This document shows positions 7,201-32,742 of a DNA stretch of 41,200 bases, in pieces. Origin of the DNA: Roseofilum halophilum BLCC-M91 (GTDB taxonomy: Bacteria > Cyanobacteriota > Cyanobacteriia > Cyanobacteriales > Desertifilaceae); NCBI RefSeq assembly GCF_030068445.1, contig NZ_JAQPOK010000139.1, forward strand, positions 1-41,200, in the 5' to 3' direction. A program made the translations under genes and the position numbers. The stretch's first letter is position 1. Each line of letters begins with the position of its first letter. The notes beneath the pieces are model-generated. The model searched no databases, was not told the DNA's origin, and was given only the letters and a program-made list of their open reading frames with translations.

Positions 7201-8415
7201 GCTCCGGTTAGTCACTCGATTGAACAACGCATTCAGCGATCGCAAGGAAAAGGCGAGAGTCTCAGCCATACCGTCCGCGAACCCATGGAACAAGCCTTTG
7301 GTGTAGACTTTAGCGGAGTTAGAATTCATCGCCAAACAGAAGGCGATACCCTCAGTCGCTCCCTCAACGCCAAAGCCTTCACTACCGGACAAGATATCTA
7401 CTTTCGCAGCAACACCTATCGTCCCGATACCTCCTCCGGAAGCCACCTCATTGCCCACGAACTCACCCATGTTGTGCAACAATCGGGTCATAAACCCCAA
7501 GTCCAGCGCAGTCCCTTCTTCCCCCAAAACCTGGTACAGCGTCAAGGCGACGGGCCGCCTCCCAAACCCCTATTCAGTCATCTAGGGAGCGATCGCATTA
7601 TTCAGCGCGATGAAGACGGAGACCTGGATCTGAGCCAGACTGCCGTTGTTGCTGGAGCGGTTGCCGTAGGAACCGCCGCCAAAGTGATGGAAAGTTCCTC
7701 CAGCCTGAAAACAGATGTAGATGTCTATAAAGATATCAGCAAGAAAAAAGGCACAATGGAAGTCTTTGTGCGGGTGCAGAAACCCCAATACCAAAGTACC
7801 CCAGAACAGCAAATGGCAGACATGGCCGATGATAGTGAAGGCATTCCCGAATTTACCCGCACCTTAATCGCCAAACATATTGAAACCATTCTCCGCCAAG
7901 ACCCTACCAGAGAAGTCGTAGAGAAAAAACTACCAGAAGTCGCCCTCAAGTTTGACCTCGATCTAGTCAAGATAGCAGGCTATACCGAAATTGGTGCCAG
8001 TAGCTTTGAGTATAAAGTTTTAGCCCAAGGCAATCCCAAAGCCGTCGCCAAGAAAAAAATCGAAGACATGCTGAAAAAAATGGCTAAAATGGGTGGTGCT
8101 AAAGCACAATCTTCTCCACCCCAACAGGATGGGACAACGGAACTACCCCCCAAACCTGCACCGCAAGAAGCGACTACCGATAAATCTAAATCAGAGGCAA
8201 GTCCAGACACCGATACCTCAGATCGAGATCAAGCAACTCCATCCACTCCAGAATCCCAAAAAGCCAAAACCACCCAAGTTAAACCTGCCGGTACACCAGA
8301 CGGAGCAGATACTGCCAGCGCTCAACCTCTCAGCACCAAAACCCAAATTAAACCCGGAGGCGATCCTAAAACCCTATTTGTCATCGCTCGCGTCGATCCC
8401 GAAGACAAAAAATGA
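1243..8415 (+). CDS. Giant protein with three DUF4157 domains, contractile-injection-system type
   Basis: The product is 2390 residues long. Three DUF4157 domains end in an HELTH zinc-metallopeptidase-like motif at residues 193-197, 545-549 and 2072-2076. The first two are close copies (both contain KAFTH, DIYFNSGQYNP and LLAHELTHTIQQ); the third is divergent. Two D-RYE-EADRMAD motifs (from residues 325 and 909) are also typical of this family. In order the protein has: an N-terminal Pro/Thr-rich tail, DUF4157 no. 1, three 20-residue repeats containing SGIDVNLKPL (about 248-307), DUF4157 no. 2, an acidic SEDTSEDK-repeat region (about 570-605), a (VGAGS)10 tract (941-990), a charged helical region, a long hydrophobic/amphipathic module (about 1383-1683, including FLATLIGLGGIANKIRKIL), a Lys-rich region and DUF4157 no. 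3 near the C terminus. The hydrophobic module resembles the tape-measure-like segment of proteins encoded in eCIS loci. Known family role: DUF4157 proteins are candidate cargo or assembly proteins of extracellular contractile injection systems. No CIS structural genes are in the window. There is no clear ribosome site at the ATG. Confidence 0.85.
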   Translation: MATKTKTQVPVTPTPATPAKNALPTPKPFTESLPVVETDTESETVQMSAMSATPPNEEGTGKGDRPQLSPLGYQFSQVSVAPTRTNPALLQSQTEEEDRPKFRRDGTFETSQSVEKRIQAKRRKGQPLPDRTRSFMEDRFGNDFSQVRIHTDSTAVQLSQDLKAKAFTHGHDIYFNSGQYNPSSTGGKRLLAHELTHTIQQKGATLKPKIAETEPTKPHKVGSEPEKLNKKTQEIKRKPLAKTVQRQEEKSGIDVNLKPLGGNLQPKEESSGIDVNLKPLADRVQPQEEQSGIDVNLKPLAAQIQRTNSDGAKIQTELIVGAAGDRYEQEADRMADRVMDRSSTLQQDPEPDREPEPETSADLNLKPLQERIQRGNGRPKSRRPKAIPYAAILGGQEESEDEQNVSITLKREDDAEEPPAPPQLPDINTDEQNVNITLKPEPEPIHDAPATLQADSDGSFEASSGIERTIKSKEGGGSSLPKETKSFMESRFNNDFSGVRVHTDSDSVQMNKDLGAKAFTHKKDIYFNSGQYNPTSTGGKHLLAHELTHTIQQTGPSVKTQPDIQKEGDEDTSEDTSEDKSEDTSEDKSEDKSADDSEDKKSISEVDEKTTEISDDDYSEDDIEKLDKDAAKTEQDVEKDKEKKQDDGKGDKKEKEDEDQPKDEVAPQETDDSSEPDVTEDLKKQAPPPPPDDTAAPVPVPDVVPGQVPDDPHQNPAFLAVTGQIEQQGTEFSKHDDPKQEAVEVQDAVVDENQADRKAKERKGDTAASQDPATFDREAFVQNLFAALGIEEPKSMKEVESGGGVGKEAEATIDKEVGSATTDAGGGMPEAAQAPPEMKDEDIKPVKEIEGVEDKINDMQDVVPEVDKAAPPETSTEKVEDKLTEQQEGLKETFGDFGQAKLMVGGPQDRYEVEADRMADTVMEMPDPQPVQAKTIEASDVGAGSVGAGSVGAGSVGAGSVGAGSVGAGSVGAGSVGAGSVGAGSVGAGSVGAGLKPAPTEMDITRQILRAKTLAETIHRSPQWILQREKEVEPEKAESVDLGTGTGKSLTTKDMETFSDPAFGGDKALQGLQETEKFSQEGPEDFRKEEEGAIADTKTRNQEKSQQTTQAMKDQRLQTMTDMTTKKEETKGTNEAARLKITEELNAIYTESQAKVDGILAEMDGEVQRRMALGKKVARRAFEIVQKAAFKKWQKNYYYHRHGIKIKIFWKKFKIFNIFLWAKEKLFTGLPDEVNQIYSDAREVYVNFLRQSIAGDAGFKPKVETGEVKAVLGKVSGLYEQLAPNAIAPYVEQKMLEAKAAIDEGKSKFQAAVDKLGPEEKQLAEGAISNIQGQFDNLENNVKSYQDNLVNDITESYKQGLKEIDDRIEALKAANQGLVQKALAFIGDVIKAILKALLTPIKWILSKFGVDSAVLDAIIDDPGGFMSNFFTGLKDGFLNFAKNFPKHFLNGLVEWLFGNIGPIKLPAKFDLAGFFDIFMQVMGFTKDAIFAIASEVFGSDIVGVIESAIEGANIDEIIDGMEEKTATIVELFYTLITKGVAAAWNFLGDVIDEMKTLFIKELTIMVSIEVVKAAITWLIGTLNPAAGIVKIIKAIVDVIIWFAQNYEHIVELIKTIFAGLSMIAKGDTAGFSKSIELVLAGLIPIALGFLATLIGLGGIANKIRKILDKITGPFRKGLKKMFEKVAAPFKKAFGKAKAWGAKKYNSAKEKAKAVKNKAKEKFTPKKKKETEKTEKQKQKDEYKRKVKQQKTEVKQMISEGEGEGEKLITNKRDPKDVKKGAKNIKSSVEKGKEFAEVKDVKVKSGFGGKYSNKYTLTGTIKKLKIPKKSSKTASRQPMAGNSTIPQEALQTELPPLVQLRAVPLKKLQRKKDKWKDKKKKLIVDDQSTSSKFVLKAKLIDEGEVLTKLARDIEKKARRIKDKKPVTYFKGLLPKYKKQYDLTSIDIDDKTGLMDKFDREIEYEITAKVPPQEKKKASRKEASGRLAAPVSHSIEQRIQRSQGKGESLSHTVREPMEQAFGVDFSGVRIHRQTEGDTLSRSLNAKAFTTGQDIYFRSNTYRPDTSSGSHLIAHELTHVVQQSGHKPQVQRSPFFPQNLVQRQGDGPPPKPLFSHLGSDRIIQRDEDGDLDLSQTAVVAGAVAVGTAAKVMESSSSLKTDVDVYKDISKKKGTMEVFVRVQKPQYQSTPEQQMADMADDSEGIPEFTRTLIAKHIETILRQDPTREVVEKKLPEVALKFDLDLVKIAGYTEIGASSFEYKVLAQGNPKAVAKKKIEDMLKKMAKMGGAKAQSSPPQQDGTTELPPKPAPQEATTDKSKSEASPDTDTSDRDQATPSTPESQKAKTTQVKPAGTPDGADTASAQPLSTKTQIKPGGDPKTLFVIARVDPEDKK
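4063..4241 (+). repeat. In-frame array: 10 x 15-nt GTAGGGGCGGGTTCY plus terminal 29-nt palindrome
   Basis: Ten head-to-tail copies of a 15-nt unit (GTAGGGGCGGGTTC followed by T or C) start at 4063 and repeat every 15 nt. They end in a complete 29-nt palindrome at 4213-4241. Inside the DUF4157 gene this encodes VGAGS ten times, then VGAGLKPAPT. The identical palindrome forms the core of the MITEs at 16222 and 19804 (16267-16295, and 19849-19877 with one central base changed). The unit length is a multiple of three, so any copy-number change keeps the frame. Confidence 0.95.
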
Positions 8416-8711: not shown

Positions 8712-8739
8712 TTGACTATCCAGAAAATGTCGGTATAAT
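8712..8739 (+). promoter_or_regulatory. Sigma70-type promoter for the defence operon
   Basis: TTGACT at 8712-8717 and a perfect TATAAT at 8734-8739 are separated by 16 nt. Transcription would start near 8746, giving an untranslated leader of about 150 nt before the helicase ATG at 8895. The box overlaps the end of the upstream remnant, so it is probably the operon's own promoter. No operator or repressor gene is evident. Confidence 0.6.
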
Positions 8740-8894: not shown

Positions 8895-11800
8895 ATGGCT
8901 CAACTCGAAGAACTTACACGCGGTGCAACTGTCAGAGGAATTCTGCCAAACCATAACGTCACGGTCATTGATGCTAAGTGGCACGGTACCGACGTGGTCG
9001 AGTTGACCTACAAGGATACGAACGGACAGCCCCATACTGAAATCTTGTTTCGAGACCGGGAGCCAACCTTAGAGGTCGTCACCGAAGGACGGCCCTGGAG
9101 CTTTGACGGCGACGGCGGATTGCTACGGCTCGTCTCAGAAGCTCATCGCATCCGGCTGGCTCATCTATTTGATCCACTGCTGGCCGTCCACACCTCTTTA
9201 GTCGAACCCCTCCCTCACCAAATCACAGCCGTCTATAGCGAGATGCTGACCCGTCAACCGCTCCGGTTCCTTCTGGCTGACGATCCTGGGGCTGGAAAGA
9301 CGATCATGGCGGGTCTCTTTATTCGAGAACTACTAATCCGTGGGGATTTACAGCGATGCATGATCGTTTGCCCCGGTAGTCTCGCAGTTCAGTGGCAGGA
9401 TGAACTGTTTCAGAAATTCCATCTGCCTTTTGAGATCCTAACCAACGATCGCATCGAAGCGGCTCGTACTGGGAATGCCTTTGGTGAAATACCACTCGTC
9501 ATTGTTCGGCTCGATAAACTCAGCCGGAATGAAGACCTGCAAGCCAAGCTTGGGCAAACCGATTGGGATTTGGTGGTGGTGGATGAGGCTCACAAAATGT
9601 CTGCCTCATTTTTTGGCGGTGAAATTAAGGAAACCAAGCGCTACAAGTTAGGTAAGCTCCTGTCTACCTTGACCCGTCACTTCCTGCTGATGACGGCGAC
9701 TCCTCATAACGGGAAAGAGGAAGACTTCCAGCTTTTCCTGGCGCTGCTCGATGGCGATCGCTTCGAGGGAAGATTCCGAGACGGGGTGCATGTCTGTGAT
9801 ACTTCCGACATCATCCGTCGTCTGGTCAAGGAAGACCTACTGAAGTTTGATGGCAAGCCCCTCTTCCCTGAACGTCGGGCACACACGGTAAAGTACATCC
9901 TCTCTGACCTGGAAGCTGTCCTCTATAAGCAAGTCACTGACTATGTGCGAGAGGAGTTTAACCGAGCTGAAGCCCTGTTCAATGATGGCCGCAAAGGTAC
10001 GGTAGGCTTTGCCTTGACCATCTTGCAACGTCGCCTCGCCTCGTCCCCTGAAGCAATTTATCAATCCCTGCGGCGACGGCGGGAGCGGTTACAGAAACGA
10101 CTCCGAGAAGAGGAACTCCTCAAGCGAGGACTCTCAGCAGAGCTAGACTTTGGGCCAACCATTGATCTGGAAGACTTAGACGATGATTTTGAGGATTCTT
10201 CCGGTGAGGAACGAGAAGCCACCGAAGAGGAAGTCGTCGATCAGGCCAGTGCGGCGCGAACGATCGCTGAACTCCAAGCAGAAATCGATCGGCTTGAGAA
10301 ACTTGAAAACTTAGCGCAGCAGGTGCGGCGTGGTGGCAAGGATCGAAAGTGGGATGAGCTATCAAAACTCCTCCAAAACAGTGCTGAGATGTTCTATGCT
10401 GGTGGCCATCGGCGCAAGCTCGTCATCTTCACTGAACACCGGGACACCCTCAATTATCTTGTCAGCCAGATTACAACCCTGATCGGGCGACCTGAAGCGG
10501 TCGTCACAATTCATGGTGGCATGGGCCGTGAAGAGCGAAAGAAAGCAGAAGAAGCCTTCAAGCAAGATGTCGCCGTTCAGGTGTTGATCGCCACCGATGC
10601 CGCCGGGGAAGGGATTAACCTGCAACGGGCACACCTGATGGTGAACTATGACCTGCCCTGGAACCCGAATCGACTGGAGCAGCGATTCGGTCGGATTCAC
10701 CGGATTGGCCAAACAGAGGTCTGTCACCTGTGGAACCTGGTCGCAGAGGAAACCCGCGAGGGAGATGTCTATCTAGCGCTGCTGAAGAAGTTGGAAATCG
10801 AGCAAAAGGCTCTCGGCGGGAAAGTCTTTGATGTCCTCGGTAAAGCGATCGCCGGAAAAGAACTGCGAGAACTCCTAATTGAAGCTATCCGCTATGGCGA
10901 TCGCCCCGAAGTCAAAGCCAAATTAGATCAGGTGGTGAGTCGCCTCGATCGAGAGCATCTGCAAGAGCTATTGGAAGAGCGTGTCCTGGCACGAGACTCC
11001 ATGGACTCCACCAAAGTTCAGAAGATTCGTGAAGAGATGGAACGGGCAGAAGCTCGTAAACTCCAGCCTCATTTCATCGCAGCCTTTTTCCTAGAAGCCT
11101 TTCAACGCTTAGGGGGAACCATTCGGCAACGGGAACCGAAGCGTTACGAGATTACCCATGTTCCAGCGGCGATCCGCAATCGAGACCGTCTCATCGGCGT
11201 GGGTGAAGCCATTCTGAAACGGTATGAGCGGGTCTGTTTTGAGAAGGAGTTGATTAGCATCCCAGGAAAGCCCCTCGCTGATTTCGTCTGTCCGGGTCAT
11301 CCCCTCCTCGATGCCACAATTGATCTGACGTTAGAGCGTCACCGCGATCTACTTCGCCAGGGGGCTGTTCTCGTCGATGAAAACGATCCAAGTGAGGAAG
11401 TCCGGGCGCTGGTGTACCTAGAGCATTCCATCCAGGATGCTCGCACTGATAGGAATGGACGGCGGCGGGTCGTCTCACGCCGTATGCAGTATGTGGAGAT
11501 GTGGGAACCACAAAGACACAAAGGGCACAACGTAAGAAATGCAGGGTATGCACCTTACTTGGATTATCGTCCCCTGACCCCTGATGAACGGACAGTATTA
11601 AAAACTCTAGATCCTTTGTGTGCTTTGTGCCTTCGTGATTCAGATCTCGAAGCTCAAGCCACGACCTATGCCATTACCCAACTTGTCCCCCAACATCTTC
11701 AGGAAGTACGGGAACACAAGGAAGAGCTGATCGAGAAAACGGTTCGAGCGGTGAAGGATCGGCTCACAAAGGAAATTAACTATTGGGATCAACGGGCAGC

Positions 11801-12548
11801 AAACCTGCGGCTACAGGAAGAAGCGGGTAAACCCAATGCCAAGCTCAATTCGGCCAAAGCCCAGCAACGGGCTGATGAGTTGGCCGCTCGGCTCCAAAGG
11901 CGGCTCTCAGAATTAGAGCAAGAACGGCAGCTTTCTCCTATGCCACCGGTGGTCGTGGGTGGAGCTATGGTGGTGCCGATTGGACTCCTGCAACGGCTAG
12001 AAGGCAAGCGAGATTCAGCCCCGGCTACCTTTGCCAAAGAAACGAAACGAGTCGAGATGGCTGCCATGAACGCGGTGATGGCCGCTGAACGAGCATTAGG
12101 ATACGAGCCACAGGATGTGAGCGATCAGAAGTGTGGCTATGACATTGAATCCTCTGTTCCCCAACTCCTTCGGAGACGCGATGCGAACGCCCAGCTTGGG
12201 AGAGGGGCTGGGGGTGAGGGCGGACGGCTACGGTTCATTGAAGTCAAGGGTAGGATAGAGGGAGCTGAAACGGTCACGGTGACGAAAAATGAAATCCTCG
12301 CAGCCCTCAATAAACCCGATCATTTTATCTTGGCGCTGGTGCAAGTTCCTGCGGATCGGGCTTTCCCAGAGGGGGATGCGTATGCGGTGCGCGAGCCTGG
12401 TGGGGATTATCAGGTTCAAGGCAAGGGTTGTATCTTGCGCTATGTTAAGGAACCGTTTCAACAGCCAGATTTTCGATCGTGTAGTGTGAACTACCCCTGG
12501 AAAGAGTTGTGGAATGGAGGATATGACCCAAGGAGGACAACCCTATGA
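8895..12548 (+). CDS. SNF2/DEAD-type helicase with C-terminal DUF3883, defence-associated
   Basis: The 1217-residue product has the superfamily 2 motifs in order: Walker A DDPGAGKT (129-136), DEAH box (230-233), TATPHNG motif III (from 268) and, in the second RecA domain, VLIATDAAGEGINLQ and QRFGRIHRIGQ (motifs V and VI). The last 110 residues (LRFIEVKGRI, then TVTKNEILAAL) match DUF3883, a nuclease-fold-related domain often at the C terminus of phage-defence helicases. Proteins of this architecture translocate on DNA, like the DrmD helicase of DISARM. Two repeat-derived segments lie in frame (about residues 871-915 and 1100-1110). Its stop overlaps the next start as ATGA, so it is co-translated with the antitoxin gene. 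The start is the first ATG after the promoter; no strong ribosome site is seen. Helicase identity is firm; the defence role is inferred from context. Confidence 0.85.
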   Translation: MAQLEELTRGATVRGILPNHNVTVIDAKWHGTDVVELTYKDTNGQPHTEILFRDREPTLEVVTEGRPWSFDGDGGLLRLVSEAHRIRLAHLFDPLLAVHTSLVEPLPHQITAVYSEMLTRQPLRFLLADDPGAGKTIMAGLFIRELLIRGDLQRCMIVCPGSLAVQWQDELFQKFHLPFEILTNDRIEAARTGNAFGEIPLVIVRLDKLSRNEDLQAKLGQTDWDLVVVDEAHKMSASFFGGEIKETKRYKLGKLLSTLTRHFLLMTATPHNGKEEDFQLFLALLDGDRFEGRFRDGVHVCDTSDIIRRLVKEDLLKFDGKPLFPERRAHTVKYILSDLEAVLYKQVTDYVREEFNRAEALFNDGRKGTVGFALTILQRRLASSPEAIYQSLRRRRERLQKRLREEELLKRGLSAELDFGPTIDLEDLDDDFEDSSGEEREATEEEVVDQASAARTIAELQAEIDRLEKLENLAQQVRRGGKDRKWDELSKLLQNSAEMFYAGGHRRKLVIFTEHRDTLNYLVSQITTLIGRPEAVVTIHGGMGREERKKAEEAFKQDVAVQVLIATDAAGEGINLQRAHLMVNYDLPWNPNRLEQRFGRIHRIGQTEVCHLWNLVAEETREGDVYLALLKKLEIEQKALGGKVFDVLGKAIAGKELRELLIEAIRYGDRPEVKAKLDQVVSRLDREHLQELLEERVLARDSMDSTKVQKIREEMERAEARKLQPHFIAAFFLEAFQRLGGTIRQREPKRYEITHVPAAIRNRDRLIGVGEAILKRYERVCFEKELISIPGKPLADFVCPGHPLLDATIDLTLERHRDLLRQGAVLVDENDPSEEVRALVYLEHSIQDARTDRNGRRRVVSRRMQYVEMWEPQRHKGHNVRNAGYAPYLDYRPLTPDERTVLKTLDPLCALCLRDSDLEAQATTYAITQLVPQHLQEVREHKEELIEKTVRAVKDRLTKEINYWDQRAANLRLQEEAGKPNAKLNSAKAQQRADELAARLQRRLSELEQERQLSPMPPVVVGGAMVVPIGLLQRLEGKRDSAPATFAKETKRVEMAAMNAVMAAERALGYEPQDVSDQKCGYDIESSVPQLLRRRDANAQLGRGAGGEGGRLRFIEVKGRIEGAETVTVTKNEILAALNKPDHFILALVQVPADRAFPEGDAYAVREPGGDYQVQGKGCILRYVKEPFQQPDFRSCSVNYPWKELWNGGYDPRRTTL
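11506..11638 (+). repeat. Repeat-derived arms inside the helicase gene
   Basis: The left arm, AACCACAAAGACACAAAG at 11506, and the right arm, CCTTTGTGTGCTTTGTGCC from 11613, are imperfect inverted copies of each other. They are homologous to the repeat cluster at 16131-16220. They encode EPQRHKGHN and LDPLCALCLRD around a native-looking core (GYAPYLDYRPL). The frame is kept throughout. Confidence 0.6.
12192..12223 (+). repeat. In-frame copy of a dispersed GGGAGAGGGG/TGAGGGC repeat
   Basis: CAGCTTGGGAGAGGGGCTGG followed by GGGTGAGGGCGG encodes QLGRGAGGEGG in the helicase, just before its DUF3883 domain. Relatives lie in intergenic DNA at 34394-34430 and 40189-40226 in the opposite orientation. 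Confidence 0.65.
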
Positions 12549-12778
12549 ATGCCCATAAGCTCGCTGCGACCCTGATGGAAGATGGAACCCTGGTGCTGAA
12601 GGGTTTACCCTTTCATGCTGGGGATACTGTGGAAATCATTATTCTGGAGCAGCCAAAGGAACAGCCAGCATCCCCATCCCAACAAACCGAGTATCCTCTT
12701 CAGGGAAAACAACCTTATCGCTACGATGATCCGTTTGAACCTGCCGTACCTGCCGAAGATTGGGAGGTTTTGAAGTGA
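12545..12778 (+). CDS. VapB-like antitoxin
   Basis: The 77-residue protein starts MNAHKLAATLMEDGTLVLKG and continues with LPFHAGDTVEIIILE, the swapped-hairpin-like N-terminal pattern of small cyanobacterial antitoxins. It then has a Pro/Gln-rich linker and an acidic tail (YRYDDPFEPAVPAEDWEVLK), as expected for the segment that wraps the toxin. A strong AGGAGG ribosome site at 12531-12536 sits 8 nt before the ATG. The ATG overlaps the helicase stop (ATGA), and its own stop overlaps the toxin start (GTGA), so it is translationally coupled on both sides. By analogy with VapB it would neutralise the PIN toxin and autoregulate, though no local promoter is seen. The family assignment rests on pattern and partner. 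Confidence 0.75.
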   Translation: MNAHKLAATLMEDGTLVLKGLPFHAGDTVEIIILEQPKEQPASPSQQTEYPLQGKQPYRYDDPFEPAVPAEDWEVLK

Positions 12779-13164
12779 TTGTACTAGACACGCACATCTG
12801 GATTTGGTGGGTGCAAAAAGATAACAGGTTAACCCAACAACACGAACAGTGGCTCCAGCAATATCGATCAGAGGGGCTAGGGGTAAGTATCTTTAGCTGC
12901 TGGGAAGTTGCGAAGCTGGTTGAGAAAAATCGGCTAAACCTGCCAGAGCCGATTGACCAATGGCTTAATACCGCATTGGCTTATCCCGGCGTGCAACTGC
13001 TAGATTTGACGTTGCCTATTGTGGTGAAAGCAACCCAACTGGAAGGGTTTCACAATGACCCGGCGGATCAAATCATTGTGGCAACAGCGCAAGTCTATGA
13101 CTGTCCGTTGCTGACGATGGATGCAAAGATCGTTAACTATCCCCATATTCAAATTCTGAAGTAG
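12775..13164 (+). CDS. PIN-domain toxin (VapC-like ribonuclease)
   Basis: I start the gene at GTG 12775, overlapping the antitoxin stop by four bases. The alternative ATG at 12760 would add only five residues and lies inside the antitoxin. The 129-residue product has the PIN acidic residues in place: LDTHIW near the N terminus, SCWEVAKL, then NDPADQIIVATA and LTMDAKI. VapC-family PIN proteins are Mg-dependent RNases that cleave tRNA or rRNA and are held inactive by the antitoxin. All four catalytic acids appear intact, so it is probably active when released. It ends 13 nt before the methyltransferase start, placing the toxin-antitoxin pair in the middle of the defence operon. Confidence 0.85.
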   Translation: MIVLDTHIWIWWVQKDNRLTQQHEQWLQQYRSEGLGVSIFSCWEVAKLVEKNRLNLPEPIDQWLNTALAYPGVQLLDLTLPIVVKATQLEGFHNDPADQIIVATAQVYDCPLLTMDAKIVNYPHIQILK

Positions 13165-13177
13165 TATTGATGCCCCT

Positions 13178-16129
13178 ATGACCTACCGCAAAAAGCTAAT
13201 TGAAGTCGCCCTCCCTCTCGAAGCCATCAACATGGAGTCTGCCCGCGAGAAGTCCATTCGCCACGGTCATCCCTCGACGTTACATTTATGGTGGTCTCGA
13301 AAACCTACAGCCACTGCTAGAGCAGTGTTATGGGCTTCTTTGGTGGACGATCCCAGTAGTTGGCCGGAGCGGTTTCCCACAGAAGCAGAGCAGCAAAAGG
13401 AACGGCAACGGCTTTTTGATATTCTGGGACGGATTAAGGTAGAGACGGATAAGAAAGGAAATCAGAAGCAGGTGGTGCGGGGGTTGGTGTCTTGGAATGA
13501 TATCAATGACCCCAATTCTGGGGTGTTATTGGAGGGACAACGGGAGATCGCTCGCTGTTTGGCATGGGAGCGGGGAGAAGAGCCACCGAAGAAACCGGAG
13601 GAGGTGCGGGAATACATCGCCAAGTATGCGCCTCCGGCTTATGATCCGTTTGCCGGGGGTGGGTCGATTCCTCTAGAGGCTCAACGTTTGGGGTTGGAGG
13701 CTCACGCCAGCGATTTGAATCCGGTGGCAGTGTTGATTAATAAGGCGTTGATTGAGATTCCGCCAAAGTTTAAGGATTTACCGCCTGTGAATCCGGAGGA
13801 TCGGCAGAAGCAGAAGATAAGTTCGTGGCATGGGGCGCAGGGTTTGGCGGCGGATGTGCGGTTTTATGGGGCTTGGATGCGGGAACGGGCGTTTGAGCGG
13901 ATTGGGGATTTGTATCCGAAGGTGAAAATTAACCACGAAGGCACGAAGGAGGCAACGGTGATTGCGTGGTTGTGGGCGCGGACGGTGAAGTGTCCGAATC
14001 CGGCTTGTGGATGTCAGATGCCTTTGGCAAATAAATTTTCGCTTTCGACGAAGAAGGGGAAGGAAGCTTGGGTGGAGCCGGAGGTGATTAACCACGAAGA
14101 CACGAAGGACACCAAGGAATCTCTTCGTGATCTTGGTGCCTTTGTGGTTCCAAAAATCCGGTTTGTGGTGAAGTCGGGGGAGGGGAAAGCACCGGAGGGG
14201 ACGGTGGAACGGAAGGGGGCGCGGTGTCTTGCCTGCGAAACGCCTGTGCCGTTGGATCATGTGCGGAGTGAGGGCAGAGCGGGACGCATGGGGGCGCAGT
14301 TGATGGCGATCGTCGCTGAGGGACAAGGTGGACGGGTTTATCTATCGCCTCAACAAGAACACGTTGAAATTGCTGATTCAGCACAACCCACTTGGAAACC
14401 AGATGCCGACTTACCGCACAATCCAAGGGATTTTAAGACTCCGAACTATGGAATGAAGAAAATTTCCGATCTCTTCACCCCGCGTCAACTGGTTGCCCTC
14501 ACCACTTTCAGCGATTTGGTCAGCGAGGCACGGGAACAAGCCACCCAGGATGCCATTGCTGCTGGGCTACCCGATGATGATGTGCCTCTGAATGAGGTTG
14601 GAACGGGGGCTAGGGCTTATGGAGAGGCGATCGCGGTTTATTTGGCATTTGGAGTTAGTAGAGCAGCTAATACTCTATGCACAATTGCCCGATGGACTGC
14701 AAGTAGGGATCAAACTGTTACTGCATTTGCAAGACAAGCAATCCCCATGACATGGGATTATCCTGATGTCAACCCCTTTTCTGGTGCAGCAGGTGATTTA
14801 CAAGTTTCTTTGTCCTCAATTTGTGAAGTTCTAGAAAGAAATCAGATTAACTCAAATGGACAAGCTATCCAACACGACGCGATCGCCCCCCACCCCAACG
14901 ACACCACCCCCAAACTCATCTCCACCGATCCGCCCTATTTCGACAATATCGGGTATGCAGATTTGTCAGATTTTTTCTATGTTTGGCTGCGGCGTTCCCT
15001 GGGTTCCATTTATCCCAACATTTGCAGCACCTTATTAGTACCCAAAGCCCAAGAATTGGTTGCTACACCCTACCGATTTGGCGGCAGCAAACAAAAAGCC
15101 AAAGAATTTTTTGAAGAAGGACTGAGCAAAACCTTTGAGCGTCTCAATAAAGTTGTTTACTCAGACTATCCGCTAACGGTTTACTACGCCTTCAAACAAG
15201 AAGAAACCGATCAAAAAGGTCAAGATGATGAGTCTGTAGCCTCCACAGGCTGGGAAACGATGTTAGAAGGCTTGATCAACAAAAATTTCAGCATTGATGG
15301 CACATGGCCGATGCGTAGCGAACTGAGTAACCGCATGGTGGCATCAGGAACCAATGCCCTCGCCTCCTCCATCGTCCTCGTCTGCCGCCCCCGCCCCACC
15401 GACGCAGCCAAAATCACCCGTCGCCAATTGCTCACGGAACTCAAACGCCAACTCCCCCACGCCCTCAAAACCCTCCAACAAGGCAACATCGCCCCCGTTG
15501 ACCTTGCCCAAGCCAGCATTGGCCCCGGCATGGCCATTTTCTCTAAATACGCTGCCGTCCTCGAAAACGATGGCTCCCCCCTGCGCGTCCGCACTGCCCT
15601 GCAACTGATTAATCAGATCCTCGACGAATTCCTCACCGAGCAAGAAGGCGAATTCGACGGCGATACCCGTTGGGCGCTCACCTGGTTTGAGCAACATCAG
15701 TTTAACGAAGGGCAATACGGCGATGCCGAAACCCTCAGCAAAGCCAAAAATACCAGCGTTAGCGGCATGGTCGAAGCAGGAATCCTAGAAGCGAAAGCCG
15801 GAAAAGTGCGATTACTCAAACGCGATGAACTAAAACCAGACTGGAACCCTAACCAAGACGACCGGATGCCCGATTGGGAAGTGGCTCAATACCTAATCCA
15901 CGCCCTCGACCAAAAAGGCGAAACTGGAGCCGCCGAACTCCTTGCTAAACTGGGAGACAAAGGCGAAATTGCTCGCGACCTCGCCTATCGCCTCTATAGC
16001 TTGTGCGATAGAAAAGGCTGGACGCAAGAAGCAATTTCCTATAACAGCCTCGTCATCTCTTGGCCCGAAATAAATCGGTTAGCATCGGAAGTGAAACCTA
16101 ACGACCCCATCCAAACCAGCCTGTTCTAA
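13178..16129 (+). CDS. DUF1156 (COG1743-type) adenine-specific DNA methyltransferase
   Basis: The 983-residue protein begins with the DUF1156 signature (LIEVALPLEAIN, then HPSTLHLWWSRKPTATAR). SAM-binding motif I is DPFAGGGS at residues 156-163, and the amino-methylation motif IV is DPPY at 584-587, followed by FDNIGYADLSDFFYVW. A Zn-ribbon-like pair lies between them (CPNPACGC, then CLAC). This order fits the COG1743 group of N6-adenine methylases with a Zn ribbon, which includes PglXI of type 3 BREX and relatives in DISARM-like loci. It should mark host DNA as self. Two repeat-derived peptides are inserted in frame: NHEGTKE near residue 252, and NHEDTKDTKE through GAFVVP at 305-324. Both fall between motif I and motif IV, in or beside the Zn-ribbon region. 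Base usage changes from G-rich to neutral to C-rich along the gene. No ribosome site is visible before the ATG. Confidence 0.85.
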   Translation: MTYRKKLIEVALPLEAINMESAREKSIRHGHPSTLHLWWSRKPTATARAVLWASLVDDPSSWPERFPTEAEQQKERQRLFDILGRIKVETDKKGNQKQVVRGLVSWNDINDPNSGVLLEGQREIARCLAWERGEEPPKKPEEVREYIAKYAPPAYDPFAGGGSIPLEAQRLGLEAHASDLNPVAVLINKALIEIPPKFKDLPPVNPEDRQKQKISSWHGAQGLAADVRFYGAWMRERAFERIGDLYPKVKINHEGTKEATVIAWLWARTVKCPNPACGCQMPLANKFSLSTKKGKEAWVEPEVINHEDTKDTKESLRDLGAFVVPKIRFVVKSGEGKAPEGTVERKGARCLACETPVPLDHVRSEGRAGRMGAQLMAIVAEGQGGRVYLSPQQEHVEIADSAQPTWKPDADLPHNPRDFKTPNYGMKKISDLFTPRQLVALTTFSDLVSEAREQATQDAIAAGLPDDDVPLNEVGTGARAYGEAIAVYLAFGVSRAANTLCTIARWTASRDQTVTAFARQAIPMTWDYPDVNPFSGAAGDLQVSLSSICEVLERNQINSNGQAIQHDAIAPHPNDTTPKLISTDPPYFDNIGYADLSDFFYVWLRRSLGSIYPNICSTLLVPKAQELVATPYRFGGSKQKAKEFFEEGLSKTFERLNKVVYSDYPLTVYYAFKQEETDQKGQDDESVASTGWETMLEGLINKNFSIDGTWPMRSELSNRMVASGTNALASSIVLVCRPRPTDAAKITRRQLLTELKRQLPHALKTLQQGNIAPVDLAQASIGPGMAIFSKYAAVLENDGSPLRVRTALQLINQILDEFLTEQEGEFDGDTRWALTWFEQHQFNEGQYGDAETLSKAKNTSVSGMVEAGILEAKAGKVRLLKRDELKPDWNPNQDDRMPDWEVAQYLIHALDQKGETGAAELLAKLGDKGEIARDLAYRLYSLCDRKGWTQEAISYNSLVISWPEINRLASEVKPNDPIQTSLF
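13931..13950 (+). repeat. Half-copy of the AACCACGAAG repeat inside the methyltransferase
   Basis: AACCACGAAGGCACGAAGGA encodes NHEGTKE in the methyltransferase frame. It matches the left arm of the fuller copy at 14090 and of the intergenic cluster at 16131. No right arm is evident nearby. Confidence 0.6.
14090..14150 (+). repeat. Full palindromic NHEDTK-type repeat inside the methyltransferase
   Basis: The left arm AACCACGAAGACACGAAGG is answered by the right arm CTTGGTGCCTTTGTGGTTCC, forming an imperfect hairpin of about 60 nt. In the gene's frame it reads NHEDTKDTKESLRDLGAFVV and then P. That kind of peptide is a known signature of this intergenic repeat when it is read through in coding sequence. 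The inserted stretch is compatible with the reading frame on both sides. Confidence 0.75.
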
Positions 16130-16130
16130 C

Positions 16131-16220
16131 CCTTCGTGCCCTTTGTGCCTTTGTGGTGAATATAACCACGAAGACACAAAGTACACAAAGTTCTTAGTCT
16201 CCTTTGTGCCTTTGTGGTTC
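16131..16220 (+). repeat. Intergenic cluster of the AACCACGAAGACAC repeat
   Basis: Three arms are visible directly after the methyltransferase stop: CCTTTGTGCCTTTGTGGT-type arms at about 16131-16158 and 16200-16220, and an AACCACGAAGACACAAAG arm at about 16164. They can pair as alternative hairpins. The same family occurs in frame in the two upstream large genes and, within this window, nowhere outside this operon. Confidence 0.75.
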
Positions 16221-16221
16221 A

Positions 16222-16328
16222 TATAGTAGATTCAATTAAGATTGAGACAATCATAATTGGTCTATTGTAGGGGCGGGTTTGAAACCCGCCCCTACAACCG
16301 TGTCTCATTGCTATTTGAATTGACTATA
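16222..16328. mobile_element. MITE copy A, 107 bp, TATAGT ends, upstream of DUF499 gene
   Basis: The ends TATAGTAGATTCAATTAAGA and the reverse complement of the 3' end (TATAGTCAATTCAAATAGCA) agree at 21 of the first 27 positions. The centre is a 29-nt palindrome, GTAGGGGCGGGTTT with its complement, at 16267-16295. TA at the termini and the small, non-coding, palindromic build suggest a MITE mobilised by an IS630/Tc1-type transposase. No such transposase is in the window. It lies 34 nt before the DUF499 start and so occupies that gene's leader. Confidence 0.8.
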
Positions 16329-16362
16329 TCTTCCTCCCCATCACACCATCACCCAAAAACCT

Positions 16363-19300
16363 ATGGCAATCAACAACAAAGAACGAGTCGGTCGCGCCCT
16401 TGACACCCTCCTTAAAGGCTTATATCCCTTCGTCGAGCGAGAAATGAAAGCCACCCACAGCAAACACTGGCTCGTTCGTGCCGCCAGCTACCTCAAAGAA
16501 GATCGAATGGGTCGTGACACCGCCCAAATTCTGCAACAAGACATCGCGGAACTCCTCTACATCATGATCTGCGAATGGCGCGATGTCTTCAGCCAACCCC
16601 TCGGCCAAACCCAACGCGCCTTTGTCAGCGAACTCAAAGAAATCCGCAACCAATACGCTCACGGTAGACCCTTCTCCACCGACGACACCTATCGCGCCCT
16701 CGATACTGCCAGCCGTCTTCTCTCTGCCATTTCTGCCCCCGAAGCCGCCGAAGTCGATAAGCAAAAACAAGAACTCATGCGACTTCGCTACGAAGACCGA
16801 GCGCGCCGCGAAACCCGCCGCGCCGCCCCCACGGAAGGCCAACCTCTTTCCAGTCTCAAGCCTTGGCGAGAAATCGCTACTCCCCATCCTGACGTTGCCT
16901 CCGGTCAGTTCCAACAAGCGGAATTTGCTGCTGACCTCTGGCAAGTCTACCTCGACGAAGGATCTGACGAATACCGCGACCCGACCGAGTTTTATCGTCG
17001 CACCTACCTCACTGAAGGTCTGCAACAACTGCTAACCAACGCCCTGCGGCGGCTCAGTGGTCAGGGGGGCGATCCGGTCATTGAACTGCAAACCAACTTC
17101 GGCGGTGGCAAAACCCACGCAATGCTCGCGCTCTATCACCTTTGCCAAGCCTTGCAAATCTCTGATCTTCCGGGCATGGAACCCATTTTTCAGGCAACAG
17201 ACCTCAAGCAACCACCCCAGAATGTTAACGTAGCCGTTTTAGTCGGTAACAAACTTCAGCCCAGCGGTATCGTTCCCTATGGTTCCAATGCCGCAAAACG
17301 CCCATTTATCAAAACCCTCTGGGGGGAATTGGCATGGCAACTGGGCGGAGCGGAGGGATATGAATTCGTTCGTCAGGCTGATGAAACCTCCACCAACCCT
17401 GGCGATGCCCTCAAGGTATTGTTCAATCGCTTTTCACCCTGTTTGATTCTGATTGATGAATGGGTGGCCTATGCGCGGGAGTTATACGATCGCAGCGATA
17501 CCGCAGGAGGCAGTTTCGACACCCAGTTTACCTTTGCCCAGACCCTCAGCGAATCGGCAAAGAATGCAGACCGAACCCTCTTGGCCGTTAGCATCCCCGC
17601 CTCTGAAACCCAAGATTCCAAAACAGGACAAACCCGAAGTACCGATATTGAAACCGGAGGAGAACGCGGCAAGGAAGCCCTAGACAGACTCAAAAATGCG
17701 ATCGGTCGGGTGGAATCCCCTTGGCGACCCGCCAGCGCGGAAGAGAGTTTTGAGATTGTGCGGCGGCGGCTGTTCCAAACTACAACCGACCCCAGCCTAT
17801 TTGTGCAACGGGACGCTGTGGTGAAAGCCTTTGCCGATATGTATCGCACTCAGGGACAGGAGTTTCCTAGCGAATGCAAGGAAGCTGACTACGAGCGGCG
17901 AATGCGAGATGCCTACCCCATTCATCCCGAATTGTTCGATCGCCTTTATTCCGACTGGTCGAGTCTGGATAAATTCCAGCGCACCCGTGGCGTACTGAGA
18001 CTGATGGCAAAGGTTATTCATTCCCTCTGGGAACGCAACGACCAAAATCTCATCATCATGCCCGCTCATATCCCCATGGACGATGCTCAAGTCCAGTCGG
18101 AACTGACGCGCTATCTCGACGATAATTGGCTTCCCGTCATTGATAAGGATGTGGATGGAGCCAATTCTCTGCCCCTTTCCCTCGATCGCAACAATCCGAA
18201 TCTGGGTCGTTACTCTGCCTGTCGCCGCGTCACCCGCACCGTCTACATGGGGTCTGCGCCTACCTTGCGAGCTGCCAATCGTGGGTTAGAAGATCGCAGA
18301 GTCAAGCTGGGCTGTGTTCAACCAGGGGAAAGTGTTGCCACCTTTGGCGATGCCCTGCGACGGCTTACCGATCAGGCGACCTATCTCTATATCGACGGGA
18401 ATCGTTATTGGATTTCAACCCAGCCCAATGTCAACCGCACCGCCCAAGAACGAGCCAATCAGTTTTTGAGCGATCGCTACCTCGTCTGGGAAGAAATCAT
18501 CAAACGCCTCAAGGCCGATAAAAATCGGGGAGAGTTCAGTGCTGTCCATGTCGCCCCCGACTCCACCGCCGATATCCCAGACGATCCAACCCTGGGAATT
18601 CGCTTGGTGGTGCTTGATCCGCAACATCCCCATAGCAAAGGCACAGAAGATAGCGCAGCCCGCCAGTGGGTCGAGAATGCCCTGAACCATAAGGGCAGCA
18701 GCCCCCGCTATTACAAAAACACCCTGCTTTTTCTGGCATCGGATAAAAGTAAAATTGAAAACCTGGAACGCAACACGGCTCAATATCTGGCCTGGAAAGC
18801 GATCGTGAATGACAAAGATGCTCTCAACCTCGATGTCTTTCAAAGCAAGCAGGCTGCCACCAAGCTCAAACAATCTCACCAGGATGTTGAGAATATCCTC
18901 CGCGATACCTATCAGTGGCTCTTAATTCCCGATCAACCGGATGCTCAGGGTGGCATTGAGTGGAATGAAACTCGACTACCCAATCAAGACTCCCCTATTC
19001 TGCAAGCGAGCCGCAAAGCCAGCCATGAAAGCGATCTTCTAACCACCTATGCAGCTACCAACTTGCGACTGGAAGCCCTCGACAAGTACCTCTGGCGGGA
19101 TAGCAACCACATCGACCTCAAGCGTCTCTGGGAATATTTAACTCAGTACCTCTATCTGCCCCGCCTCAAGGATCAAAACGTGCTGGTGGAAGCTGTTCGA
19201 GACGGCGTAGCGTCAACGATTTGGGCTGACAACTTCGCCTTTGCCGAAGCTTTTGATGAAGAAAAAGGTAAATACCTGGGACTTAAAGCAGCAACAGGCA

Positions 19301-19761
19301 TAAATCCAAGCATTAGTATTCAAAGCCTCCTGGTGAAGCCTGACATTGCCCAGCAGCAGTTTGATGCAGAAGCAGCCCAGGCAACCACCATTACCTCTGG
19401 TGGTTCAACGACTATCACGGGGGAAGGAACGTCAGGCGGTGGCTCATCAACCAATGGCTCCGGTGACGGTACAACGGGCAGTGATGGTGGTTCTGCCAAT
19501 GGGATGGGAGATAGCCAAACGACTGTCCTGCGTAGGTTTTATGGCAACGTCGATATCGATGCGATGCGGATAAACCGGGATGCACCAGCGATCGCTAATG
19601 AGGTCATCCAGCATCTCACTGCTCTCAACGGTGCCAAGATCAAAATCACGCTCGAAATCGAAGCAGAGATTCCTGACGGAGTACCTGATGATGTCGTTCG
19701 TACTGTGACTGAGAACTGCCGAACACTGAAGTTTAACAGTCAGTCATTTGAGCAGAGTTGA
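16363..19761 (+). CDS. Swt1-like HEPN plus DUF499 (COG1483-type) P-loop ATPase
   Basis: The 1132-residue protein starts with about 120 residues typical of a Swt1-like HEPN domain (RVGRALDTLLKGLYPFVERE, then EIRNQYAHGRPFSTDD, where RN-x3-H is the HEPN-type motif). The DUF499 ATPase follows: FYRRTYLTEGL, Walker A NFGGGKTH with GGGKTH at 247-252, and Walker B LILIDEW with D365 and E366. A Gly/Ser/Thr-rich linker (about 1012-1048) precedes a compact C-terminal domain ending KITLEIEAEIPDG and onward. DUF499 proteins accompany DUF1156 methylases in defence loci; the ATPase probably powers assembly or remodelling on DNA, and the HEPN part could be an RNase. The gene is preceded by a MITE and by repeats instead of a recognisable ribosome site, and another MITE follows its stop by 42 nt. 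It may thus depend on read-through from the methyltransferase. Confidence 0.85.
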   Translation: MAINNKERVGRALDTLLKGLYPFVEREMKATHSKHWLVRAASYLKEDRMGRDTAQILQQDIAELLYIMICEWRDVFSQPLGQTQRAFVSELKEIRNQYAHGRPFSTDDTYRALDTASRLLSAISAPEAAEVDKQKQELMRLRYEDRARRETRRAAPTEGQPLSSLKPWREIATPHPDVASGQFQQAEFAADLWQVYLDEGSDEYRDPTEFYRRTYLTEGLQQLLTNALRRLSGQGGDPVIELQTNFGGGKTHAMLALYHLCQALQISDLPGMEPIFQATDLKQPPQNVNVAVLVGNKLQPSGIVPYGSNAAKRPFIKTLWGELAWQLGGAEGYEFVRQADETSTNPGDALKVLFNRFSPCLILIDEWVAYARELYDRSDTAGGSFDTQFTFAQTLSESAKNADRTLLAVSIPASETQDSKTGQTRSTDIETGGERGKEALDRLKNAIGRVESPWRPASAEESFEIVRRRLFQTTTDPSLFVQRDAVVKAFADMYRTQGQEFPSECKEADYERRMRDAYPIHPELFDRLYSDWSSLDKFQRTRGVLRLMAKVIHSLWERNDQNLIIMPAHIPMDDAQVQSELTRYLDDNWLPVIDKDVDGANSLPLSLDRNNPNLGRYSACRRVTRTVYMGSAPTLRAANRGLEDRRVKLGCVQPGESVATFGDALRRLTDQATYLYIDGNRYWISTQPNVNRTAQERANQFLSDRYLVWEEIIKRLKADKNRGEFSAVHVAPDSTADIPDDPTLGIRLVVLDPQHPHSKGTEDSAARQWVENALNHKGSSPRYYKNTLLFLASDKSKIENLERNTAQYLAWKAIVNDKDALNLDVFQSKQAATKLKQSHQDVENILRDTYQWLLIPDQPDAQGGIEWNETRLPNQDSPILQASRKASHESDLLTTYAATNLRLEALDKYLWRDSNHIDLKRLWEYLTQYLYLPRLKDQNVLVEAVRDGVASTIWADNFAFAEAFDEEKGKYLGLKAATGINPSISIQSLLVKPDIAQQQFDAEAAQATTITSGGSTTITGEGTSGGGSSTNGSGDGTTGSDGGSANGMGDSQTTVLRRFYGNVDIDAMRINRDAPAIANEVIQHLTALNGAKIKITLEIEAEIPDGVPDDVVRTVTENCRTLKFNSQSFEQS

Positions 19762-19803: not shown

Positions 19804-19910
19804 TATAGTAGATTCAATTAAGATTGAGACAATCATAATTGGTCTATTGTAGGGGCGGGTTTCAAACCCGCCCCTACAACCGTGTCTCATTGCTATTTGA
19901 ATTGACTATA
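19804..19910. mobile_element. MITE copy B, 107 bp, downstream of DUF499 gene
   Basis: This copy is identical to copy A at 16222-16328 except for one base at the centre of the palindrome (GTTTCAAAC instead of GTTTGAAAC). It has the same orientation, so the DUF499 gene is bracketed by 107-bp direct repeats spaced 3,582 bp apart. The near identity implies recent insertion or ongoing gene conversion. Confidence 0.85.
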
Positions 19911-25443: not shown

Positions 25444-25720
25444 GGGAATAGGGAATAGGGAATAGGGAATAGGGAATAGGGAATAGGGAATAGGGAATAG
25501 GGAATAGGGAATAGGTAATGGGTATTTCTCCGTGTCCCCGTGTCCCCGTGTCCCCGTGTCCCCGTGTCTCCGTGTCCCCCCATCTCCCCATCTCCCCATC
25601 CCCGTGTCTCCGTGTCCCCCCATCTCCCCATCTCCCCATCTCCCCATCCCCGTGTCTCCGTGTCCCCCCATCTCCCCATCTCCCCATCCCCGTGTCTCCG
25701 TGTCCCCCCATCCCCCTATC
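25444..25720. repeat. Short tandem repeats: 10 x GGGAATA, then CCGTGTCC and CCCATCTC arrays
   Basis: Ten perfect copies of GGGAATA occupy 25444-25513. From about 25530 to 25720, 8-mers CCGTGTCC/CCGTGTCT and CCCATCTC are arranged in a higher-order pattern of roughly 40 nt that repeats about four times. The CCGTGTCC part is the reverse complement of the array between zwf and opcA. Open frames through this block on both strands are artefacts of period-8 repetition. Confidence 0.95.
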
Positions 25721-26091
25721 TTCACGGAAATAGGGGGTCAGAGGTCTAGGGGGAAATCCGGATTTTCTATTTAGTATTTTAAGTAAATTCCCCTTGTACG
25801 CCTGTCCTGACTTCAAGCACCGGTAAAACCCAATCGTAAAAATTCGGATATTTTGTTCTCTTTGAACAGGATGTCGGTTAAAAGTTCGCTAATATCACTG
25901 AAGATTGACGATCTTGGGAGTATTCAGCCGCAGTGATAGAACTTTAAAAATCCTGTATGCTGGAAGAGAGGCCAGACAAAAGTTTCCCTGATCCCAGCCG
26001 AGAAACCCCGGCCAAAAGCCTCAATCGCCCTTAAATTCAACCTTTTTTAAAAAAATTTGCTTCAAACCTTAATCTTTTTTAACTTTAAGTC
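25721..26091. other. Gap between repeat array and next gene
   Basis: CCCCCTAT and ATAGGGGG at about 25708-25737 could form a hairpin closing the gltX transcript. The rest is AT-rich with no recognisable gene or RNA. No ribosome site is evident before the ATG at 26092, which is preceded by T- and A-rich sequence. Confidence 0.4.
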
Positions 26092-26472: not shown

Positions 26473-26676
26473 AAATTAACTCAATTTCTCAACATAAACT
26501 CAGGAAAGTTAGGTATTGAATCAATAGGTGAATGGGGAGGATAGTCTATTTCCCTATTGCCTATTGCCCATTCCCCCATGCCCTTCCCTTGGTTACAGAA
26601 AGGGTAACACCACTGCCATCTGCCGATCGCTATGACAGCCTAGAAGTATAGATCCCTATATTCTGGAGTGCGGAGC

Positions 26677-32735: not shown

Positions 32736-32742
32736 AGCGAAG

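Follow-up and report, generated by a model that had tools for sequence, protein, structure and literature searches.

A VapBC toxin-antitoxin pair, probably a mobile cassette, inside a Hma-type operon of the cyanobacterium Roseofilum halophilum

We analysed a stretch of 41,200 nucleotides from Roseofilum halophilum BLCC-M91 (contig NZ_JAQPOK010000139.1, positions 1 to 41,200; hereafter the window), in which five genes form one run on the + strand at 8895-19761 by open reading frame (ORF) reading: hmaA, a vapB-like antitoxin gene, a vapC-like toxin gene, hmaB and hmaC. The Hma genes are adjacent and point in the same direction, with the VapBC pair as their sole interruption, and all five reading frames are open with their motifs intact. 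An earlier, sequence-only reading of this DNA had placed these genes correctly, all on the + strand, and the domain names it had given (DUF3883, DUF1156, Swt1-HEPN and DUF499) agree with Pfam. The features of the operon are as follows.

8712..8739, + strand: sigma-70-like promoter sequence TTGACT-16-TATAAT, upstream of hmaA (11/12 consensus bases)
8895..12548, + strand: hmaA, Swi2/Snf2 helicase with a C-terminal NOV_C/DUF3883 PD-(D/E)XK nuclease (PADLOC, Pfam, motifs)
12051..12356, + strand: NOV_C/DUF3883 nuclease domain of HmaA (Pfam PF13020, 69.7 bits)
12545..12778, + strand: vapB-like antitoxin, 77 amino acids (aa) (pairing with the toxin; no Pfam match)
12775..13164, + strand: vapC-like PIN-domain toxin (Pfam PIN; ORF open from 12760, probable start GTG 12775)
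13178..16129, + strand: hmaB, DUF1156 amino-methyltransferase by its DPPY motif (PADLOC, Pfam, motifs)
16363..19761, + strand: hmaC, Swt1-like HEPN fused to a DUF499 AAA+ ATPase (PADLOC, Pfam, motifs)
16393..16734, + strand: HEPN domain of HmaC, with the active-site motif RNQYAH (Pfam, motif)

The sequence TTGACT-16-TATAAT, which had been called a good promoter, does exist, but only 3 promoter-like sites were counted in the region upstream of hmaA, fewer than the 7.8 that shuffles would give, so it is no evidence of a promoter by itself.

The three large proteins match the PADLOC profiles of the Hma system over nearly their full length: HmaA with 1663 bits (aa 1-1204; profile 1-1164 of 1176), HmaB with 1211 bits (aa 4-974; profile 8-958 of 967) and HmaC with 1087 bits (aa 164-1130; profile 2-940 of 941). 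HmaA contains the Pfam domains SNF2, Helicase_C and NOV_C (aa 1053-1154) and the motifs GAGKT, DEAH, RIHRIGQ and GYD...IEVKG, and an ExK-like motif occurs within the last 220 aa of 82 of the 83 helicases examined. Immediately ahead of IEVKG its nuclease domain holds a repeat-like insert of ~18 aa (containing QLGRGAGGEGG); this insert was found in 0 of 12 relatives compared, although L062 has a different repeat-like insert at the same site. HmaC matches Pfam HEPN_Swt1 (123 bits, aa 11-124) and DUF499 (105.8 bits), with RNQYAH in the HEPN domain and GGGKTH as Walker A, and the motif R[ND]x3H is present in 77 of 81 HEPN-bearing relatives. HmaB matches Pfam DUF1156 (100.2 bits) and carries DPFAGGG and DPPY. 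DPPY is the motif of amino (N6-A or N4-C) methylases, and by this rule the window's HmaB would be of the amino type. It differs in this from the description of the Hma system in PMC8565338, where HmaB is called an m5C methylase.

By these matches the operon is a member of the Hma system in its HEPN-fused Type-1 BREX-Related (BR) form, whose core is already known because the same gene set was named Hma in 2021 and reclassified as Type-1 BR in 2026, and a close set was tabulated in 2013. The 2021 description (Payne et al., PADLOC) counts 1,638 instances in 26 phyla with the same helicase, methylase and ATPase (PMC8565338); the window's operon differs from it in the VapBC pair between hmaA and hmaB and in the N-terminal HEPN domain, which is additional to the HmaC profile because the profile match begins only at aa 164. 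The 2026 survey reports the Type-1 BR set in 2446 taxa, 1370 of them with the HEPN fusion, and an active C-terminal restriction endonuclease (REase) on the helicase in 79% (PMC12839542). The window's operon shares with these the tripartite core, the N-terminal HEPN with RNQYAH on DUF499, the C-terminal PD-(D/E)XK of the helicase with the motif of an active REase and the DUF1156 methylase, and a stand-alone DUF3780, the mark of Type-2, was absent from the 19 window proteins scanned against Pfam (a set that includes the Hma genes and VapBC). That survey lists PIN endoribonucleases among the less common auxiliary effectors and mentions nucleases within loci, and in its consulted parts, supplements lying outside our scope, we found no mention of interior toxin-antitoxin cassettes or repeats (PMC12839542). 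The 2013 account describes Ava_2192 of the cyanobacterium Anabaena, a Swt1-type HEPN fused to a DUF499 ATPase, in an operon of restriction-modification (R-M) type whose SNF2 helicase carries DUF3883 (PMC3710099); the consulted portion mentions no VapBC, which is present in the window's operon.

The sequence-only reading was right in suspecting a minimal stand-alone defence system. The three-gene set is, however, that of Hma, a named system with the same helicase, methylase and ATPase, and a match of that kind is what it had said would count against its proposal. The likeness to DISARM or to type 3 BREX that it had put forward is rejected by the profile scores. The helicase scores 1663 bits with HmaA against 427 with DrmD and 348 with BrxH (PADLOC), its match to the NCBIfam DrmD model (371.5 bits) lies below the cut-off of 610, and DrmB and DrmC were never the best match among the 9 window proteins scanned with PADLOC profiles, which removes DISARM; the methylase scores 1211 bits with HmaB and only 14.3 with PglXI (PADLOC), no PglZ was found among the 19 proteins, and the ATPase is DUF499 rather than BrxC/DUF6079, which removes BREX type 3. 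The accompanying claim that the 41 kb hold no DrmA, DrmB, DrmC, PglZ, BrxA or BrxB is supported in part, in that PglZ, BrxA, BrxB, DrmB and DrmC are the best match of none of the scanned proteins, a scope of 9 proteins against PADLOC and 19 against Pfam; the helicase also matches DrmD- and DrmA-labelled models more weakly (among the best 25 of 63 families).

The toxin matches Pfam PIN with 57.3 bits and contains the acidic motifs LDTH, WEV, NDPAD and MDAK, and four acidic active-site residues are the rule for PIN toxins. Its 77-aa neighbour gave no Pfam match even at E 10, and it lies upstream of the toxin in 29 of 30 fetched toxin loci, the window's copy included (tblastn; in 8 its C-terminal part only), a pattern that identifies it as the toxin's conserved upstream partner. 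Both features of a VapBC pair, a PIN toxin with acidic motifs and a small upstream antitoxin, were thus found, and toxicity is a prediction from them. The hmaA stop overlaps the antitoxin start in ATGA, the antitoxin stop overlaps the most likely toxin start (GTG 12775) in GTGA, and hmaB starts after a gap of 13 bases from the toxin stop; by these 4-base overlaps and the short gap, the pair is stitched into the operon.

The toxin family is common beyond the Hma system. Homologues (E <= 1e-20) occur in 166 of 388 genomes of the order, and Hma genes were present in three of the 30 best toxin loci fetched with flanks of ~1.5 kb or less (the window's own, L197 and L208). The same family lies between hmaA and hmaB in the window, L072, L073, L081, L096 and L097, and between hmaA and hmaC in L266. 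A tree of 34 toxins, from which L195 (a duplicate of the window), L094, L110, identical sequences and matches <40 bits were left out, requires 6 changes between embedded and solo positions, of which at least 4 are forced by well supported branches. The closest toxin (92-93%) belongs to another genome (G080), where it sits close to the end of a contig and at a distance from the Hma operon, which lacks the pair. Between the window and L072, VapB is 91% and VapC 86% identical against 75, 76 and 75% for HmaA, HmaB and HmaC, which suggests either that the pair moved between operons after their split or that it evolves more slowly. These comparisons indicate that the VapBC family is widespread in cyanobacteria and has moved into or out of Hma operons on several occasions. 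The idea that VapBC is a fixed Hma subunit was considered and rejected on the toxin tree and the order-wide search. As a separate observation, the VapBC copy nearest the window's (L265, G080:C10, near 9410) shares with the start of hmaB ~25 bases past the toxin stop, and it looks as if this copy formerly stood ahead of an hmaB gene.

We asked where such inserts lie in 126 distinct Hma loci, counted from 135 read after leaving out duplicates (L094, L110, L115, L116, L127) and loci without a usable HmaB match (L064, L066, L075, L080). The spacers of cyanobacterial operons are long (median 1566 bp between hmaA and hmaB, the A-B slot, n=36; 917 bp between hmaB and hmaC, the B-C slot, n=44). Their same-strand interior ORFs of 60-300 aa (n=106, Pfam) comprise 19 PIN, 8 Uma2, 7 PDDEXK_3 and 4 PemK proteins, with MazE, PrlF, HicA, HepT-like and 23S-IVP in smaller numbers, compared with 2 PIN genes among 72 interior same-strand ORFs, otherwise of mixed nuclease and toxin families, in other phyla. 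Among the same-strand ORFs that flank the cyanobacterial operons within 4 kb (n=124), a set less diverse than its count suggests since L082, L083 and L091 are near-identical and carry the same ATP-synthase genes, PIN is absent from the best 25 of 72 families, ATP-synthase subunits are commonest and Uma2 (4) follows. By a PIN profile built here, which did not pick up the L102 PIN gene (28.1 bits with Pfam), PIN genes make up 17/146 interior ORFs vs 2/266 flanking ORFs (either strand, whole fetched flanks; Fisher p ~1e-6), and at loci with both spacers readable an interior PIN gene occurs in 15/35 cyanobacterial vs 2/46 other Hma operons and a tight pair of small ORFs in 18/35 vs 4/46, p-values being merely indicative because the 15 PIN-holding cyanobacterial operons, which fall in ten genera, are not independent. 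The VapBC of L073 enters no interior count, as it lies inside the chained HmaB match. An embedded toxin pair, which had been called unusual, is therefore no rarity within cyanobacteria, and the description holds elsewhere.

Two plasmids illustrate what the slots can hold. In the mobilizable plasmid NC_019759.1 of Gloeocapsa PCC 7428 (L081/L285), a DUF29 protein, a small hypothetical protein, an AAA ATPase and a DUF4435 protein lie between hmaA and hmaB; the small hypothetical protein corresponds to the antitoxin and is followed by the toxin, whose reading frame is split, while the ATPase together with the DUF4435 protein scores as an AriA/AriB-like (PARIS-like) pair (90 and 74 bits). In a plasmid of Tolypothrix PCC 7601, XisH, XisI and Uma2 lie between hmaB and hmaC. 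The likeness to PARIS (AriA/AriB; PMC11455837) concerns the A-B slot of this one relative, and such a pair is missing from between the window's Hma genes. We found no published account of interior toxin-antitoxin cassettes in Hma operons in the open-access literature (subscription papers and supplements lay outside the search). The operon is an ordinary Hma member in a cassette hotspot for which no prior description was found there.

Closely related operons record the turnover of such cassettes. The Hma regions of genomes G402 (L084) and G415 (L087) are ~98% identical, and their largest length difference is an 855-bp stretch in the B-C spacer, present in L084 only, with a pair of genes of 71 and 138 aa; it ends in or at the edge of arrays of a ~74-bp palindromic repeat, and a second indel of 76 bp corresponds approximately to one repeat unit. 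In both operons the small gene pairs of the B-C slot are bracketed by repeat arrays, one of which enters the start of the first ORF. Similarly, four loci of one other genus (L068, L069, L096 and L102, the last matching a Microcystis wesenbergii record) have HmaA 93.5-98.0% identical (three pairs, since a contig end truncates hmaA in L096) and HmaC 94.6-97.7% identical, and their slots are filled in part differently: A-B holds a 126-aa gene in L068 and L069 (PDDEXK_3, from the L068 copy scanned), a 225-aa gene and VapBC in L096 and a 170-aa gene in L102, and B-C holds, in the same order of loci, no same-strand gene, a 119-aa gene with PIN, a 169-aa gene and a 69-aa gene with PIN. HmaB is only 81-89% identical among these four because 50-aa blocks in stretches between aa ~350 and 800 drop as low as 30-82% (where L068 is one of the pair, aa 51-150 are also down, to 78-80%). 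Over four near-identical operon pairs, the L084/L087 lineage included, HmaB blocks are 30-84% identical over a central stretch (between aa ~300 and 800), with 94-100% identity kept in aa 151-300 and in the last 170-200 residues, the pattern expected of a swapped specificity (target-recognition) region. Other observations concern HmaB itself: in L101 (genome G406) its first loop has an in-frame insert of ~150 aa resembling a small endonuclease-like domain (by eye like DUF559), other relatives have repeat-derived inserts in the same loop, and L078 and L082 each have two hmaB genes in one gene cluster, possibly two specificities.

The window's operon also contains repeats, which fall into two kinds; one of them, CCACRAAG, is of the family that forms the palindromic arrays in L084 and L087.

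11505..11646, no strand: two inverted arms of the CCACRAAG repeat, inside hmaA (repeat finding, genome pattern search)
13930-13957, no strand: partial CCACRAAG copy in hmaB (repeat finding)
14089..14150, no strand: palindromic CCACRAAG repeat, in frame in hmaB, encoding the peptide NHEDTKDTKESLRDLGAFVV (hairpin -26.7 kcal/mol, z -4.7)
16132..16225, no strand: CCACRAAG palindrome between hmaB and hmaC (hairpin -30.8 kcal/mol, z -4.5)
16222..16328, + strand: 107-nt interspersed repeat, copy ahead of hmaC (99% identical to 19804-19910)
19804..19910, + strand: 107-nt interspersed repeat, copy after hmaC (99% identical to 16222-16328)

The complete hmaB copy and the spacer copy form hairpins much more stable than those of shuffles, the hmaA stretch folds no better than shuffles (z -1.46), and the HmaB inserts near aa 250 and 305-325 lie between strands of a beta-rich module in a moderate-quality model. 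In the 4.85-Mb genome 7 of 8 CCACRAAG sites (<=1 mismatch) are inside the operon, the pattern having been designed on the window so that its own matches arise by construction. Over the 126 loci there are 143 interior matches in 8 of 50 cyanobacterial loci, 5 outside and none in the 76 others, and 48 control loci (type I R-M regions and other toxin-copy regions, one of them a Hma region) gave 16 matches in 823,585 bp. At least one exact site occurs in 16 of 30 genomes tested, G402 has 125 exact sites, of which at least 36 fall within the Hma operon, and the window's genus, its own genome aside, shows 0, 0, 0, 0 and 1 in its five genomes. CCACRAAG as a locus-specific repeat was overturned by this wider count, which makes it a genome-wide interspersed repeat in some lineages. 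The 107-nt copies form direct repeats flanking hmaC, which would be lost in its entirety if they recombined; the genome has further copies of lower similarity, the best (93%) on contig C82.

The complete three-gene set was found in many phyla. Of 386 genomes in a sample of the phylum, 62 have HmaC profile matches (E <= 0.001), which exceed 800 bits in 22; HmaB profile matches of any strength, other-type relatives included, occur in 161 of 388 genomes of the order, and HmaC matches by tblastn (E <= 1e-20) in 118 of 72,556 plasmid records, 49 of which cover at least 80% of its length. The operon was probably acquired from outside, because it is patchy in the genus (of the 6 genomes listed for the genus, its own counted, 2 have a strong HmaB match) and its GC content (51-53% in its 3-kb blocks) exceeds that of most of the window (45-48% in 8 of 9 other blocks; the ninth has 52.5%). 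The CCACRAAG repeat probably came in with it and marks its foreign origin, because the repeat is genome-wide elsewhere and nearly absent in its own genus.

We reasoned that the locus is a restriction-modification-like defence operon of the Hma type with a mobile VapBC cassette that would act as an addiction lock and/or a backup ribonuclease (RNase), a reading to which we give a probability of about 0.75. HmaB would methylate adenines in a sequence that its variable target-recognition region specifies, thereby marking the cell's own DNA, HmaC (AAA+ ATPase) and HmaA (Snf2 translocase with PD-(D/E)XK nuclease) would scan and cut unmarked invading DNA, and the HEPN RNase on HmaC would be a second-line suicidal effector; self-marking, scanning with cutting and a suicidal HEPN are the model of PMC12839542. 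VapBC would be a mobile cyanobacterial toxin-antitoxin cassette rather than a fixed fourth subunit, having landed in one of two interior slots (A-B and B-C) where cassettes and small nucleases recurrently collect. When a phage or a deletion stops expression of the operon, the labile antitoxin would fall and VapC would be freed. We favour such a mixed addiction and guard role for the embedded pair because of the analogy with PrrC and of the PARIS-like pair in the same slot of a relative. PrrC is encoded within an hsd operon (the PrrI type Ic R-M locus) and becomes free when a phage blocks restriction (PMC3710099); the likeness is that of an RNase toxin gene inside a restriction operon as a second line, and the difference is that PrrC is a HEPN-ABC protein silenced by the R-M complex, whereas the window has a PIN toxin with its own antitoxin.

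Several results weigh against this reading, and some of them would suit a neutral explanation, in which VapBC is a frequent jumper that survives in dispensable, well spaced defence operons and adds nothing; we consider this a serious rival to the guard and addiction role, with a chance somewhat short of even. The window's genome has 30-32 PIN genes, and most homologues of its VapC, among those listed, lie outside Hma operons, with MutS, RNase II and STAND-type ATPases among the neighbours of the solo copies examined more widely. Embedded and solo labels do not cluster on the toxin tree beyond shuffles (61/500 as low). The CCACRAAG repeats do not bracket the window's VapBC, and the 855-bp cassette of L084 is called toxin-antitoxin only by its two-gene layout because its 71- and 138-aa proteins have no Pfam match above cut-off. 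The enrichment per base, 19 PIN genes (Pfam) in 111,572 bp of spacer against 0.41 expected from 950 PIN matches in 259 Mb of 49 genomes, is flattering because the spacers are long partly through the inserts they hold; the comparison per ORF is fairer, and shared ancestry is uncorrected in both. Similar inserts also occur in the type I R-M operons that these genomes carry (31 usable regions out of 40 fetched), where an interior PIN gene was found in 5/31 loci and 5/71 ORFs against 3/173 in flanks, the fair figure being 3/29 as L262-L264 were picked knowing that PIN lay near HsdS (L262 and L263 are among the 5, L264 was unusable). Per ORF, Hma and type I R-M operons do not differ significantly (p 0.35), and the comparison per locus (15/44 vs 3/28, Fisher p 0.029) is only suggestive, its denominator being slightly wrong. 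Since the level of interior PIN genes in type I R-M operons is lower than in Hma or similar to it, the hotspot is not peculiar to Hma, and interior toxin insertion seems to be a trait shared by the restriction-like operons of these bacteria. On the other hand, neutral hitchhiking does not readily account for the excess of PIN genes in the interior over the flanks (17/146 vs 2/266), for the 4-base overlaps that join antitoxin to hmaA and toxin to antitoxin, or for the AriA/AriB-like pair that one relative has in this slot, pairs of that type being known sensors of anti-restriction.

The translational stitching would also suit a dedicated, co-evolved fourth component, controlled by the Hma proteins as the PrrI complex silences PrrC, and so would the recurrence of the family in the A-B slot of six operons and between hmaA and hmaC in L266, and the precedent of PrrC in hsd operons; such a component is nevertheless unlikely, given at least 4 forced changes between embedded and solo positions, a nearest toxin relative that sits elsewhere in a genome whose Hma operon lacks it, and 20/35 cyanobacterial operons without an interior PIN gene by the profile used. 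Decay of the operon, its function lost as repeats invaded hmaA and hmaB, is improbable: palindromic repeats do lie within both genes and a repeat-like insert beside the HmaA nuclease motif, but the five frames are open with intact motifs, and the repeat inserts are in frame, in two loops that bear inserts in other full-length HmaB proteins. That the operon is a degenerate fragment of DISARM or BREX type 3 is scarcely credible, for although the helicase is distantly like DrmD and BrxH and BR systems are related to type 3 BREX (PMC12839542), the HmaA profile scores ~4-5x higher and the three-gene set recurs complete in many phyla.

As a system, the locus adds one more Hma/Type-1 BR operon and alone changes little. 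Toxin-antitoxin cassettes inside rather than beside an operon bear, however, on the question of passengers vs guards in defence islands, and their frequent insertion hints at how defence operons gather extra safety switches. Tentatively, and with the odds against it, we propose that cyanobacterial Hma operons are cassette platforms: toxin-antitoxin pairs, small nucleases and PARIS-like guards would come and go in the two slots, in some lineages by recombination between arrays of 74-bp palindromic repeats on either side of each cassette; if true, they would be a recombinase-free counterpart of the integron, each strain having its own fail-safe triggers, coupled to the restriction operon, and its own HmaB specificity. 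The near-identical operons of G402 and G415, different by one small-gene cassette, and the four loci of one genus, with their HmaA and HmaC 93-98% identical and their inserts partly different, are ready-made test material.

Outside the operon, the window holds other features. Beside it, at 1243-8415, lies a gene for a protein of 2390 aa with three eCIS_core matches, of the extracellular contraction injection system type, with an 11-fold 15-bp repeat at 4032-4255. A full-length serpin (414.7 bits) is encoded at 26668-27936; serpins are best known from eukaryotes. Two opposite arrays of an 8-bp repeat lie 7 kb apart at 25519-25729 and 32713-32941, with arms of 173 nt that are 80% complementary, and the second overlaps the start of an OpcA-like ORF at 32710.

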